This document shows, in pieces, positions 9,340 to 44,695 of a stretch of 64,000 bases of DNA. The translations under genes and the position numbers were made by a program. The notes beneath the pieces are model-generated. The model made no database searches, was not told where the DNA came from, and saw only the letters and a list, made by a program, of their open reading frames with translations. The stretch is from Hesseltinella vesiculosa. Lineage: Eukaryota > Mucoromycota > Mucoromycetes > Mucorales > Cunninghamellaceae. Positions within the stretch are counted from its first letter, which is position 1, and each line of letters opens with the position of its first letter. The stretch lies in assembly GCA_002104935.1 (NCBI GenBank), contig MCGT01000041.1, forward strand, positions 131,501-195,500, written 5' to 3'.

Positions 9340-10595
9340 TTGTAGCGAGAGATCAGTAAACACTGTCAGTTGCTGAAGCTTGCCACCCAGTCTGGGTATT
9401 ATGTATACAGGTGGAGGAGGCAGATCCCTGATGCATTTAAAGCAGTTCGAAACTATCAGACGAGAAAAAAGAGCGAGAGAAAAAAGTGTCGGCAGCGAAA
9501 CCCCCCCTCCCGCCTTTTGAACAGCCACGGTCGACGATTGTAATAATTGGTGTCGACTTTTTCAATGGTTTTTATCCCTTACATGATAACTCGAGTGTCT
9601 GATATGCTTGTTGTGATGATGTAAATTTATGCGCAGCTTTCTTGCTGTGGCATAGAAGATTTCCGCTTCATAAGCGAGGAAGGGAAGAAGGCACTATGCG
9701 GTGATTGAATTGTCTTTTTCTTCGTTTTGAAAAAAAAAAAGCAATAGCTACACAGCGTTTTTGAGAGATGGGAACTGTGTGAAATTTTGTAAGAGTGCGC
9801 AAATGTATGAATGATACTAATGCTGAAAAAGTCAGGTCAATTGATGAAGGTCGCCCAGCCAACTTTTGAGCAGTTTCGTTTTGGCGTCTCCGATCCCTCA
9901 GCTAAAAAAAATGAAAAATCGGCCATTTTTGCCAGGGGACCCCCAGGCAATTGGCGGATTGCGGACTTTGGATTTTCGAGTGTCGCACAAGCCATGACAA
10001 ATTTGGCGCAGCTTTTTTTTTTTTTGTCGTAGATATTTATCCTGCGCGCCAACCATCACTAAAAATACTACAGTGCAAAATTGCTGTAAATCAACTCACA
10101 CCAAATTTTGCATACCTATAAATAATGATGAGAGATGACCTTGATTTAAATTTCAACTCCTTCAGGAAGCGGAAGAGGGAGCTAGAGACAAATTACTTTT
10201 TCATCTTCAATATGGACTCGCGCAGCCAGCTCCAAAAGGCGACACTCCCAATTCGGAACTGGCACCAAAGAGTGCCCAAATTCTTCGACATTGGGATTCT
10301 TAATTAGAAGCACCACACTCCGGAAGGACTTTGGAGAAAAAAAAATATGGGATGTGTGAAAACCAAAAGCTAAAGTGGTCAACTGTTTTCACTGGAAGTG
10401 ACGACGACACGGCGGTCGGCTCCCAAAATGGAAAGTGCCCCCCGTCCCCTTTTTCATAGGAAGAAGTGCTTCCGTTCAATTGGGCCCTGTTTGGTGTTAC
10501 ACAGAAAGTGCAATTTATTGAAAACTTTTTTGTTTTCTTTCTTTGTTTGCCCCCTTTTCGCTCTTTTTTTTTATGCCTATTTTATAGTCCAAATC
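9340..10595. other. Intergenic region holding repeat copy A
   Basis: Apart from the repeat at about 9730-10190, I see only short random frames and homopolymer runs before the Kelch gene. Confidence 0.5.
9730..10190 (+). repeat. Dispersed repeat family, copy A
   Basis: About 450 bp sharing long similar stretches with 25530-25890, 36780-37010 (both inverted), 39540-39722 and, more weakly, 49860-50150. Shared blocks include CCCAGCCAACTTTTGA, CAGTTTCGTTTTG, AAAATGAAAAATCGGCCATT, GGGGACCCCCAGG, CCAAATTTTGCAT and ATGACCTTGATT. Compared with copy B it carries roughly 100 extra bases after the GGGGACCCC block. There is no coding capacity. It could be a MITE, a solo LTR or a fragment of a larger element. 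Confidence 0.75.
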
Positions 10596-25529: not shown

Positions 25530-25890
25530 CTAACACTTCCCTCCGCTGTCTGAGAGTCATGTGATTTCAATCAAGGTCATTTCTGACCATTTTGAACTGA
25601 CATGCAAAATTTGGGGTGAATTTATTTAGAGCAATTTTTCACTGTGATTTTTTATCAGATCGCCTGGGGGGTCCCCTGGTGAAAATGGCCGATTTTTCAT
25701 TTTTTTAAGCTGGGGAACCGGAAGTGTCAAAACGAACCTGATCAAAAGCCGGCTGGGTAACCTTCACCAATGGACCTGTTTTTTTCAGCATCATCATCAT
25801 TCATACATTTGCGCACTTGTGCAACATTTCACACCGATCCCATCAATCAAAAGTGCTGTACAGCGATTATTTTTTTTTTTCAAATTGGAG
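25530..25890 (-). repeat. Dispersed repeat family, copy B
   Basis: The reverse complement matches copy A nearly end to end: CAAATGTATGAATGATGATG, CCCAGCCGGCTTTTGATCAG, AAAATGAAAAATCGGCCATT, CCAGGGGACCCCCCAGG, CCAAATTTTGCAT and ATGACCTTGATTGAAAT. It extends about 60 bp further at the end containing CAGACAGCGGAGGGAAGTG, a block also found at 34082-34130. Confidence 0.75.
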
Positions 25891-26039
25891 AAAAAATCGG
25901 ATCGCTGTGTTTAACTTCCGCACGGTGCCTATCGACCTCAGGCTGGTACAAGCAGGCACTACCAAATCAGTTCGAAGGTCCAACCATTTCCAAAATCGAA
26001 AATTCAAATTTGACGATGAAATACTGTCACTGCCTTGAT

Positions 26040-39345: not shown

Positions 39346-39539
39346 ACGATGGGTTGGACTTTGGACTTTTAAATTGCTTTTTAATGTCGAAAGTAGCTTT
39401 CGTTGATTACCAGCACATGAATAGAAGGCATAGTGGTGATGTTTTGAAGTGAAAAGGGGGGAGAAAGATGATTTTGTTTTCGATTTTTTGTACGCAAGTA
39501 GCGCTACGCGGAGGTTGAAGATGGTAATGCAAATCCTTC

Positions 39540-39722
39540 TCATTTTGAAAAAAAAAAAAAGGAATGCCACAAAGCACTTTTCAGCGATCGGATCAGTATG
39601 AAATTTTTCATGAGTGAGCAAATGCGTGAATGATGATGACACTGGAAATATTACATCGATTGGTGAAGATCACCCAGCCAACTTTTGATCAGTTTCGTTT
39701 TGACACCTCCGATTCTCCAGCA
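39540..39722 (+). repeat. Dispersed repeat family, copy D (truncated)
   Basis: It matches copy A from its poly-A through GTGAATGATGATG, CACCCAGCCAACTTTTGATC, AGTTTCGTTTTGACACCTCC and GATTCTCCAGC. It stops abruptly where the others continue with AAAATGAAAAATCGG. The sequence after it leads straight into the Fanzor 5' flank. Confidence 0.75.
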
Positions 39723-39813
39723 ATGGAGTGGGGAAATGGCGGAGTGAAAATGTAACTCGCGTTTCACCTTTTTTTTTTTTGTTCTTTCTTCTTGTTTTCC
39801 TTCATCACGAAAA

Positions 39814-42800
39814 ATGGCCCGTACCAAGCAGGGTAGAAAAAGAAGACAAAATACGCCCGAGGTGGAGTCGGATAGAACTCAGTTAGTGCCAATTGAAGAA
39901 GAAGCTGGCCCTTCTACGTCACGTATGACCAAGCATGATACATATGAATTGTCTTTTCGATAGCGCCGTTATCTAATCACTTTTCTCATCAGGCCCTGTC
40001 AAGCGACAAAGACGAAACAAAACAAGGAATGTAACAAAAAGAAGACAGAATGCTGATGAAAAAGCAGCAAAGCGTACCGGGAGAGATGAGCGTAGCCTTG
40101 CCATCGATCGACAGCGACGATCTCGACGTCCCTGCCCAACTTGCATAAAGAATGGAAACATAGAATCGTCATTGACCCATTCAAGATCATCAAGTCGCCT
40201 ATGTCCCTACCGCATACCCTCTCAACGTGCACAAGGGAACCAATTGCTTGGTGGAAAGAAGACCAAGACACTCACGATCAAGCATGGACTGTACCCATTA
40301 TTGAAATCGCTACGCAATGCCGAGAAAGAAATTCTTATGGGTGGCCTTCAAGCAGTTGTTGATTTTAATCGTCGTGTGTTGATTTGCAGTCACCTGTTTA
40401 TCCTGGATTACTTCAACTCCCGCCTCACCAATGGCCTGGATATCCCTCTAGTGTTCCTGGACTATCGGTTTGTCAATGGTGTGTTTCAGCTTGTCATTGG
40501 CCGATCTTGGTCGAACAACTCACTCTTTACTGAAGAGGTCCGTCAACACATTGAAGAATCGTTTGCCACATTTCTGATTCAGCATCCTAATGTCCACTGT
40601 CCACTGGTCCCGTCTGCTGTGCGAGGGAAACGCCCTATTGGCTTTTCCAAGATTTTAACTTCCACGGCCCGCACGTACGCCTCCAGCATGGTGAATCACG
40701 TGGTCGAGGGCTTCGACCAAGCCTACATTGGTTATTTGCAAGCTCGCCTTGCTCGTTCTATTCCAGTAAGTAACTCAAAAAAACCTCCACCATTAACAGC
40801 TCACCTTTTTTTTTTTTCCAAATAGGAACTTAATCGCTTTCAAGTTGGAGCCCTTGCGGATTTCGTGTTTGACACGTGTGCACAAAACCAAGACTTTGAA
40901 CCAGTTTGGCCGACGATCAATGTTGAAGATTCTATCGACCATGCTATGGTGGATGCCAAGGTCGACACTGCTTTGAACGAATTGATAGACGAGACTTGGG
41001 ACAGATGGACACAACTCGCCATTCGTATTGAACAAGAAGGACCCTTGCCACAGCAAGACGCGGATGAGGACAACCAAGACGACGAGAGTGACAACCTCTC
41101 GGTCAGCACAGCCACAGCCATGTCCATCGACACTATCTCAACCCTTGGCATCTCGCGCCTTGATGTTGCTACTGGCCCTTATACCTTGCCTCCGTTAGCT
41201 GATCCATCTCTCTCAACTGACAACGCTATTCGTAGCCAGGCTCCTCCATCTGTGTCTATTACAACGACAACGATCACCCGGTATCCGCACCTGTTTATCA
41301 AGATTCTATTTGATGTCTTGTGCAGCTTGGAGCGCCTAAATGAAGATCAACACACGGCACCGGCGCCACAAACCTCCGTTCATTGGAATTGGACACATCA
41401 CCAGCTCTCTGGAATGCATGACTGGAGTTATCTGAACCATCACCAGCGGTCAAAGCTCGTCCGTGGTATATCCAAATCCATCAACAACAACACTCCAGTG
41501 GACATTGAACGACTGCCTCGTGTCTTTTCTCAGCAATCCCGCCAACAAGTGACCACGCTTGTGGCCGAAACGCAACGAGCTATTGCTGCTGGCACATTCT
41601 CATCCGAAGCATACCTTGTGTCACCAAAAGTGCGTCTTTTCTCGGTCCTTCCCACACCGTCTCTCACTCGAAAATTCATTCAAGTCTCCCACGATTCTCT
41701 TGGTGAAATCATGCGCCATTTCGGATTAGAACACTACGTCGTACCTCAAGCGATTCGCCCAGTTGCTGGACAAGTGCATGACAATTTCAAGATCCTGAAC
41801 TTGAAAAGGATCCATAGTGGGTAAGTGGGAAACAAAGAGATAAAAAAAAAATAGGTGAGAGCATTGCCGGAAAAAGATATCTCACTTTTCATTTTCTAGT
41901 CGCGGAATCTTCCTCAATCAGCTGTACACTGATGGCTATTCCGTTTGCGTTCCATTCAAAAAGATGTCTGGTGCATCGAGCGACCAACCTCTTCGACTGA
42001 CCGACATTAGCCCTGTGGCCATGCAGCAAATGGACGTTTGGGGTAAAGATCCTGGCGTCACCGACATCTTTGTAGCATCAAACTCCTCCGATCCCCGTGC
42101 TTACCTCTCCCCAGCGGACCTTCCAGGTGAACCATTGCTAGCCACACCGCCGAACCCAAGGCATCAGATCCGCCGCTTTTCCAGTGCTGAATATTATGTC
42201 AAAGCTGGCTATCGAAAAACCGTCGCAAATATCAAAGCCTGGAAGCAGCAGCACGGCATCACTGAAATTGAGTCGTCCTTTGGGTCGCCAAAAACAACAG
42301 TGCGCCAAAACATCACTGCCTACATCACTGAAAAGCTACGCCATTTGGATCGCTTGCTCTTATTTTATGGCCAAGACATTCAGCAGCTCCGCTTCTTGAA
42401 CTACAGGGGCGCGCAGCTCGTTAACCACGACCTGGTCAAGATATTTGTCGACGGTGGTCGCAAGTACGGATCCCATGCCTCCAACTACAACAGCCACGAC
42501 ACATACATGAGCCGGCTAAATGAAGATGGCAGTTTTAAGAGTCGTCGGCGTCAGCATGCCCATCCCTCCCCTCCTCAGTCAAGGTAATGTCAAAATCAAA
42601 ACCAACAAAAAAAAAACTGACTTCTTTTTTATTCAGCGAGACAAGAAATGGAAAGTGGCGTCCCTTGCCTTTCCAACCATCCACCCAGATACCCCTTCTG
42701 TGCATTGGTGATGGAAGATTTGGCAGGCGACGCTTCAACAAAAAGCCACTTGGTCTTGCAAATCGCTTCAAGAAAGTGGTTCGATTGGCCCAGCGGCAAT

Positions 42801-43108
42801 TCCCCATTTTGGTGGTCGATGCAGACGAAGCCTTTTCGTCCAAAGTTTGCAGCAAATGTGGGAAGAAGACTTTGACCAACGTGACGGTGGATGGTGGCGA
42901 ATCAAAGTTGCATGCAGTGCAATGTTGCGAAACATGTAGCACTGTGTGGCAACGAGATTGCAACGCCTCCCGAAACATCCATGCGCTCTCCCATTTTGCT
43001 GCTCTTGGTGTGAAGCCTCTTGTTTTCACCCCCCGAGACCAAGATCAGGCCGACCCTTCCACAACCTCGCCACCAGACGCGCAACCGAACCAACCAACCC
43101 CAACTTAA
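39814..43108 (+). CDS. Fanzor (eukaryotic TnpB-like RNA-guided nuclease), apparently intact
   Basis: Predicted 974 residues; exons 39814-39922, 39993-40765, 40826-41820, 41900-42583, 42637-43108, all phases closed. The N-terminus is very basic (KRQRR, KRRQ; likely nuclear signals). A CCHC knuckle follows (C84, C87, H99, C107; THSRSSSRLCP). A long region without recognised domains leads to LYTDGYSVCVPF, a block typical of Fanzor proteins just before the nuclease. The RuvC-like nuclease has its first Asp in WGKDPGV (about 640). IGDGRFG (about 841) stands where TnpB would have its glutamate. VDADEAFSSKVCSKCG follows (alternative Glu about 882, zinc ligands 889 and 892), then CCETC (914-918) and RDCNASRNI (last Asp about 925). 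This matches the published Fanzor pattern of D, [ST][ST]xx plus C4 finger, then RD. Related nucleases cut DNA guided by an RNA made from the gene's 3' flank. It lies next to transposon relics. Confidence 0.93.
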
Positions 43109-43490
43109 TCCAGGTATCAAAAACCTGTACGACGTATAAGCTGTAAGTCAAAAAAAAGCAACTGTGCAGTAATCTGATCAGACTTCGCATCCACTCAGGC
43201 AAAATGACCTGTTAGTTCTTTGAACGTCTTGTCTGGCTGTAAGTAGCAAAAAAGAAGGTGCCAAATTCTATTTTTCAAAGGGTGAGTGGAAAAGATAAAA
43301 AGATGCCTAGCTTTTGCTAAACTAACCACTTCATTTTCCTTTTTCGTAGCTGACTTTTTTCTTGCTTTGCGACTTTTTTTTTTTGGAACACAGTACCAAA
43401 AGCAGAATCAACCCCCTCCCTCTCTGTGGTAGAGTGCTTTTTTTCATTTTTATTTTTTTTTTTGCTCAGATTTACGCACCTTGCTGCAAT
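43109..43490 (+). other. Fanzor 3' flank, candidate guide-RNA region
   Basis: In Fanzor and TnpB loci the guide RNA usually derives from the end of the gene and its 3' flank. Here a short stem (CAGGT, loop ATCAAAA, ACCTG) lies at about 43112-43130, a few bases after the stop. Further CAGACT/AGGCAAAATGACCT segments follow at 43180-43215. I cannot fold or align it, so boundaries are unknown. From about 43330 the sequence is the T-rich leader of the next gene. Confidence 0.3.
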
Positions 43491-43810
43491 ATGGCACGAC
43501 GCTCTGGTCTTCAGCAGCAGATCATCAACCTTTATAGAGAATGCTTTCGAGCAGCAAAGGAAAAACCGGTCGTGAGTAACCATGACCATCAGCAGAGATC
43601 GCAGTCGCATCAACAGCCTTTTTTTTTTTTTTTTTTTTTTGACAATTTAAATAGGATGCTCGTCCACGATTCCAGGCATTTATTCGGCAGGAATTCAGAA
43701 AACATGATATTCGCAAGAACGATTTCGCCACCATTGAATACATGCTAAGAAAGGGCGAACGACAACTGAAAACTTACCGCAAACCCACCATGAAGGATAT
43801 CCACGTTTAA
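43491..43810 (+). CDS. SDHAF1: SDHAF1 (Sdh6), succinate dehydrogenase assembly factor
   Basis: Predicted 78 residues; exons 43491-43571 and 43655-43810. It is a LYR-motif protein: SGLQQQIINLYRECFRAAKE carries the Leu-Tyr-Arg motif, followed by FQAFIRQEFRKHDIRKNDF, FATIEYMLRKGERQLKTY and a C-terminal IHV. Order and length match SDHAF1/Sdh6, which helps insert iron-sulfur clusters into the Sdh2 subunit of complex II in the mitochondrial matrix. The small size and short intron are normal for the family. The 84-bp intron contains a poly-T of about 22 bases. Confidence is high, since the spacing between LYR and the IEYxLR block is characteristic. Confidence 0.92.
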
Positions 43811-44039: not shown

Positions 44040-44438
44040 TTAGCTGTCACTTTTAACTTCTTCGGCAGAAGTCTTTTGTTGCTCACGATAGGCATTGGCT
44101 GTGGCTTCAGTACATGCGTGAAGGTCTTTGAGTGCTTGAATACATCTTTCGGGCTCGTCTGGATTGGCAGTAAGGCACTGATCGTAGGCTTCGATGGGTT
44201 TAATGCATTGCTGCTTGACATATTTGAGAATGCCGACACTGATCAAAGAAAAGGTGAACAACAGGAGAGAGGGACAAGAGTTGCAATAGGCTTACTTGTC
44301 ATCTGAGCATTTGGTGAGGGCTCGCTTTTGCTGGAGACAGGCCTTGTCCCAGTTATTGGGGTAATTCTCGATGCACTTTTGGTACATTTCTAATTGCAGA
44401 GCACACTTTTCACGTACTTGTCTCAATGTGTCGTCCAT
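44040..44438 (-). CDS. MIX14: Twin CX9C protein of the MIX14/CHCHD5 type
   Basis: Predicted 113 residues; exons 44438-44296 and 44238-44040. It contains two pairs of CX9C motifs: CALQLEMYQKC and CLQQKRALTKC, then CIKPIEAYDQC and CIQALKDLHAC. This four-motif arrangement is that of CHCHD5/Mix14, small proteins imported into the mitochondrial intermembrane space by the Mia40 disulfide relay. No presequence is present, as expected for that route. The first residues are MDDTLRQVREK. It is divergent from the gene at 44696, sharing a 257-bp promoter region. The family is clear; the exact orthologue name is slightly less so. Confidence 0.85.
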
Positions 44439-44695
44439 GGTGGTCAAAGGAGTAGCGAAGGATCTACAGTGTATGTGACTGGAAGAAAAAAGAGACGAAG
44501 TGAAAAAAAAAAAACTTAGGGCCGCATGACCTTCGCCTTTGAAACGCAGCCCACTGGCCTGCAAAAAAAGCTGCTTGGACCAGGATTTCTTACTTTTCTT
44601 TCCACTTTGTTTAATCCCCCTTTGTCTTTTGTTTGTGATTGAATTGACCGATTGATTAGCTGAACATTATCTCAATAACTGGCTACTAATCTACG

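Follow-up and report, generated by a model that had tools for sequence, protein, structure and literature searches.

Fanzor1 genes carried by Tc/mariner elements were described by Bao and Jurka (2013, PMC3627910), the available part of which names PGv-1, PUl-1 and PUl-4. These elements, from a Phaeocystis virus and Pythium, combine a Fanzor1 gene with short inverted repeats and a TA target duplication, and PUl-4 encodes Fanzor alone. SpuFz1 of Spizellomyces punctatus, as presented in the accessible portion of PMC10432273, occupies a multi-copy locus of ~2.1 kb with a single ORF, inverted-repeat flanks (30-nt repeats) and no transposase found inside; its catalytic glutamate is relocated, and its guide RNA comes from the right end and runs on into the flank. 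Parasitella parasitica PpFz1, a Fanzor1 from Mucorales, the order that also includes Hesseltinella, carries a cyclophilin-binding RuvC insertion (FRI), according to the excerpted text of PMC11423790. As far as these excerpts extend, both settings of Fanzor1 are already published, mariner elements in 2013 and Mucorales in 2013 and 2024 (PMC3627910, PMC11423790).

The locus considered here lies in a stretch of 64,000 nucleotides from Hesseltinella vesiculosa, hereafter the window. It is very probable that it holds a Fanzor1 (Fz1) nuclease gene belonging to a transposon family of the Tc1/mariner type in this fungus, in which no other gene is recognised. Like PGv-1, PUl-1 and PUl-4, as far as the source describes them, the Hesseltinella element combines Fanzor1 with short inverted repeats and a TA duplication, and like PUl-4 it encodes Fanzor alone; it differs from them in its mucoralean host, its five coding exons and a product of 1010 amino acids. 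With SpuFz1 it shares the multiple copies, the inverted-repeat flanks, the lack of a transposase inside and the relocated glutamate, whereas it is longer (~4.5 kb), contains introns and displays no detectable RNA structure. PpFz1 is distinguished by its FRI; the Hesseltinella protein has a proline-rich loop after D676. In the literature on H. vesiculosa transposons, no Fanzor is mentioned in a title or at the start of an abstract.

The Fanzor1 gene and its product

The gene extends from start to stop codon at 39814-43108 on the plus strand, and its assignment is based on the spliced frame, a PF07282 match and sequence motifs. Five predicted exons separated by four GT-AG introns form a single open frame of 1010 amino acids: exon 1 (39814-39922) encodes a basic N-terminus, exon 2 (39993-40765) a set of Cys and His residues, exon 3 (40826-41820) a region that includes an acidic linker, exon 4 (41900-42583) the TDGY block, the RuvC-I residue Asp676 (42048-42050) and the region aligned with SpuFz1, and exon 5 (42637-43108) Glu918 (42827-42829), a C4 zinc ribbon and Asp961 (42956-42958). 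Eight of the splice combinations tried keep the frame, and the one with the best splice signals was chosen. The preliminary description had proposed five in-frame exons over the same interval; its coordinates, exon number and motifs hold, while its length of 974 residues falls 36 short, which corresponds to exon 1. A public H. vesiculosa gene model for this locus (P0001, DM01DRAFT_1377999; its UniRef name starts 'Cas12f1-like TNB domai') comprises 859 amino acids identical to residues 152-1010, so that introns 2-4 agree between the two, P0001 being a gene model rather than a transcript. Moreover, exons 1 and 2, predicted from splice signals, appear credible because residues 40-336 are matched by a Gongronella butleri protein (BC940DRAFT_24084, P0005; E 1e-38, two sequences compared).

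The product contains TDGY at position 636, DPGV at 676, IGDGRFG at 877, Glu918, the cysteines C925, C928, C951 and C954, and Asp961. We take IGDGRFG to occupy the place that the canonical glutamate has in TnpB. The rearranged active site is recognised by a glutamate located six residues before the first CxxC, as stated in the available part of PMC10711439; with DPG at 676 and E918 six residues before the first CxxC, the window protein fits this spacing. It also matches the Fanzor1 pattern D-X(125,275)-[TS][TS]XX-C4 zinc finger-X(5,50)-RD, as given in the accessible text of PMC3627910: 244 residues (by subtraction) separate D676 from S921, followed by C925/C928/C951/C954 and R960-D961. The first match to this pattern started at D654, and the 244-residue distance is counted from D676. 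The Fanzor motifs of the preliminary description, together with the three catalytic acids (D676/E918/D961) and the zinc ribbon, were all found, in a mucoralean genome.

The Pfam match to PF07282 (E 2.6e-9; 37.5 bits, the cut-off being 26.3) indicates that the frame is not open by chance. The classical CCHC knuckle has the spacing CX2CX4HX4C. The N-terminal residues that had been described as such a knuckle are spaced C84-X2-C87-X11-H99-X7-C107 and coincide with no Pfam knuckle, which rules out the classical type; C84, C87, H99 and C107 align, however, with residues of Gongronella P0005.

When the PDB was searched with a family profile made from four mucoralean proteins, Spizellomyces SpuFz1 was the top match (E 8.9e-5) among 18 at E up to 10, the match spanning one RuvC helical stretch with the catalytic residues outside it; GtFz1 was found in the same search at E 0.089. 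The window sequence alone gave five matches at E up to 1, none of them a Fanzor, the best being an unrelated oxidoreductase (0.53) followed by a TnpB-like protein, L79 (0.59); exon 5 alone placed L79 first (0.033) and likewise retrieved no Fanzor. An AlphaFold model based on six sequences was too poor (pLDDT 44.7, pTM 0.26) for a comparison with the SpuFz1 structure. The sequence supports assigning the window protein to the Fanzor1 type, complete in its three catalytic acids and its zinc ribbon.

Relatives also occur within the genome. The 27-Mb H. vesiculosa assembly yields 46 PF07282 matches at E <= 0.001, and a pattern check of 26 Fanzor-like sequences located the relocated glutamate in 16, the window included. 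Six others (L063-L068) have F or S at this position, and the remaining four (L069, L070, L071 and L073) do not fit the pattern. The relocated glutamate is therefore not universal among the TNB-domain loci of this genome, and the proposition that every Fanzor family of the genome has it was abandoned; L063-L068 are possibly inactive relatives or fragments. L001, L003, L007 and L008 carry VGNG or LGDG at the position of IGDGRFG and DE[RK]WTS ahead of the first CxxC. Beyond the genome, protein searches, two of the three scoring only the ~8000 best word-sharing candidates, found six proteins: three belong to H. vesiculosa, while Mucor saturninus, Gongronella butleri and an Apophysomyces contribute one each. 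The nearest retrieved relatives outside Hesseltinella with RuvC-region sequence are Mucor INT47_007518 (P0004) and Gongronella P0005, at 31-36% identity. P0004 keeps the relocated glutamate, as does the window protein, but is shorter; unlike the window protein, the P0005 gene model lacks the zinc ribbon.

The transposon family

At least three Fanzor families have a common right terminus: A, which includes the window copy; B, comprising L003 and its relatives; and C, comprising L071 and L073. A 7-kb query against the 27-Mb assembly recovered eight other near-full-length copies of family A at 97-98%, as well as several partial ones. Their right ends stop at one and the same base before differing flanks, and TA follows the right end in eight of nine copies, the window included (the exception is L015). 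Copies other than that of the window extend ~840 bp further left, to a TA-flanked end; six of nine (L010-L014 and L017) begin at TA on the left, while the left end of L016 is altered, the L015 locus stops short and the window copy has no left end. L014 measures 4531 bases from end to end, and its ends form short inverted repeats (TACWGTGTTT..) with GTCGCA further inward on both sides. Judged from these inverted ends and TA target duplications, the Fanzor element is of the Tc1/mariner type.

No transposase was detected inside the element: the left 840 bp of L014 contain no stop-free stretch longer than 66 amino acids, and among the DDE_3 matches listed (164 in the genome), none lies inside L014. 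The element is therefore classed as a non-autonomous mariner-type element rather than a full mariner. The 164 DDE_3 matches mean that potential helper transposases are abundant, and, as no transposase was found inside it, the element would presumably be mobilised in trans by one of the many Tc1/mariner transposases of the genome. Some of the DDE_3 matches listed are close to copies of the Fanzor element, on C34, C3 and C33. A Tc1-like transposase gene on C49 (DDE_3 3.1e-15, HTH_Tnp_Tc3_2 4.3e-12), situated 0.7 kb before a right end that has 22 nt in common with the Fanzor element, was considered as the transposase source and set aside, as the left end was not found.

Fanzor elements also abut other mariner-like ends with one TA in common, on the left in L010, L012, L013 and L018, where the mariner-like end directly adjoins the Fanzor left end, and in the flanks of L012, L016 and L019; an insertion preference or joint movement is a possible explanation. 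The right ends of L012 and L016 adjoin related repeats. Inspection by eye of the L010/L011 deletion as an empty site revealed no clear duplication. Of a subfamily comprising L018, L019, L051 and L052, the first three match the window no further than ~42725 and have a different 3' part beyond the IGDGRFG block; L052 is cut by a contig end.

Among 36 copy pairs, dN/dS ranges from 0.19 to 0.48, a sign of selection during spread. When the exon borders of the window are applied, the frame is open in four of nine copies (that of the window, L010, L011 and L017), and the other five have 2-33 stops in the joined frame, or frameshifts. The window copy and L010 have GT-AG borders at every intron; in L011 and L017 intron 4 starts with a GC donor, and in L017 the acceptor of intron 2 is also non-AG in the alignment.

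The right end and its predicted 3' UTR intron

Downstream of the stop codon, a 68-nt intron is predicted in the 3' UTR (43282-43349, plus strand) from splice and branch signals conserved in the three Fanzor families. It is followed by the right end of the transposon as a terminal exon (43350-43393, plus strand) consisting of GCGAC, a T run and GGAACACAG, which is putatively the 3' part of the guide-RNA scaffold, and by the TA target-site duplication (43394-43395, plus strand), identified by copy comparison. The flank just beyond (43396-43415, plus strand) would serve as the guide segment if the arrangement were that of SpuFz1, in which a comparable place at the right end gives rise to a guide RNA that has a 75-nt scaffold, according to the available text of PMC10432273.

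The right ends of 15 copies were aligned (7 of family A, 6 of B and 2 of C; L011, L013, L015, L004, L006, L008 and L056 were among those left out). The intron-like module occurs in all 15, each carrying CTAARCT[AGT]AC and TAG, and the GGTGAGTG donor is present in every one except L073; the overall pattern, GGTGAGTG..CTRAC..TAG, is of the spliceosomal type. Outside the window, the module is also found at the right ends of L003, L005, L057, L058, L060, L061, L071 and L073. The introns are 63-69 nt long, and the distance from intron to element end, TA included, is 44-56 nt in the seven ends measured. When one end each of A, B and C were compared with the terminal 12 columns excluded, 19 of 22 splice and branch columns were identical, against 35 of 114 other ungapped columns (Fisher p 1.4e-6, a value that is descriptive only, since the motif was picked after the alignment had been seen). 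We read this conserved module as a true intron. Among the papers listed on Fanzor and splicing, no title or start of an abstract reports a terminal intron in a Fanzor 3' UTR.

The terminal sequence TTTTTGGAAAYACAGTA occurs with at most one mismatch at 24 genome sites, against one for a reversed control. Some of these sites do not adjoin a known Fanzor, and the window end is not among them because of a 1-nt change.

Folding of four stretches at the right end gave structures no better than those of shuffled sequences (z +1.35 to -1.33), 21 folds of spliced and unspliced right ends gave z values from -1.81 to +1.92 and thus no support for a structured RNA, the alignment of the three families revealed no structure beyond chance, and Rfam returned 0 matches at the right end. 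With neither a fold signal nor an Rfam match, the guide RNA was not located. It is conceivable, though unlikely, that splicing in the 3' UTR decides between nuclease mRNA and guide-RNA precursor, the spliceosome making or switching the guide RNA.

Two further genes lie beyond the element. An LYR-family gene occupies 43491-43810 (PF05347, 4.8e-14), with its start codon slightly less than 100 bp past the right end of the Fanzor element, and the putative guide would match the region upstream of this gene. A gene for a twin CX9C (CHCH-like) protein is located at 44040-44440 on the minus strand (PF16860, 6.9e-19).

State of the window copy and competing explanations

The broken 5' side of the window copy is joined at 39721 to a dispersed repeat (39502-39721, no strand assigned; at least 30 matches at 66-83%). 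Only a remnant of the element's 5' region persists next to it (39722-39813, plus strand), with a junction, CAATG|GAGTGG, common to L010 and L011. The repeat had been considered as a MITE ending at 39721, an idea that was rejected because most of the other copies examined extend beyond the matching point. It also occurs at 9718-9894, at 25709-25892 and at ~30 more places in the genome, sometimes as inverted pairs, and the left part of L012 contains a weakly related sequence (75% over 77 bases).

With its left end lost, the window copy should be unable to transpose itself and is probably immobile despite its open frame; it may continue to provide nuclease and guide RNA. A reading compatible with the Fanzor family assignment, and only slightly short of an even chance, is that it is a decaying fragment, truncated at the 5' side, that owes its open frame to youth alone and has no present activity. 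Such decay would be consistent with the loss of ~840 bp including the left end, with the fusion to the repeat and with two changes private to this copy: an in-frame deletion of 15 nt after 41088 in exon 3, which removes five residues of the acidic linker and is absent from all eight other copies, and a 1-nt change in the terminus, GGAACACAG instead of the GGAAA[CT]ACAG of the other 14 aligned ends, in all of which the terminus is full length. Stops or frameshifts, moreover, have already arisen in five of the nine copies. In the window copy the frame, the catalytic residues and the borders of all four introns are nevertheless intact, and the deletion falls in a linker whose length also differs between the copies P0001 and P0002.

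A nuclease-dead or repurposed protein of the TnpB family, such as a repressor or a regulator of transposition, is improbable: the product is long (1010 amino acids, against the usual 600-700 of Fz1 in the available text of PMC11423790), Pfam recognises only its C-terminal domain above the cut-off and six other TNB-domain loci lack the relocated glutamate, yet the window protein has the D, E and D, and the glutamate is retained in 16 of 26 sequences checked and in Mucor P0004. Less probable still is membership in a different family of RuvC proteins or transposases (Cas12, IS200/IS605 TnpB or DDE). NCBIfam models for TnpB and Cas12f2 are indeed listed, none of them near its cut-off (best 22.6 bits, where 100 is required), but DPG together with the relocated glutamate, the introns and the eukaryotic host argue against such an origin, as do SpuFz1 as the top PDB match of the family profile and the six proteins found, all from Mucorales fungi (two of the searches having scored only the ~8000 best candidates).

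By analogy with TnpB and SpuFz1, the Fanzor1 protein should bind an RNA transcribed from the element's right end, the flanking DNA acting as guide, and cleave the corresponding empty site next to a motif containing TA; the ensuing repair would favour the element being retained or copied. In the part of the Fanzor literature that was available, biochemical tests cover a handful of Fanzors only. A multi-copy family of recent spread, whose copies are nearly identical and in part intact and whose ends are mapped, would provide a natural set of guides in the form of its right flanks, and the mapped copies also offer a TA-centred motif to test. The Hesseltinella element is a known kind of Fanzor1 element with one conserved, unexplained feature in addition, the terminal 3' UTR intron, which makes testable how a eukaryotic cell derives a guide RNA from a transcript that must also be an mRNA.
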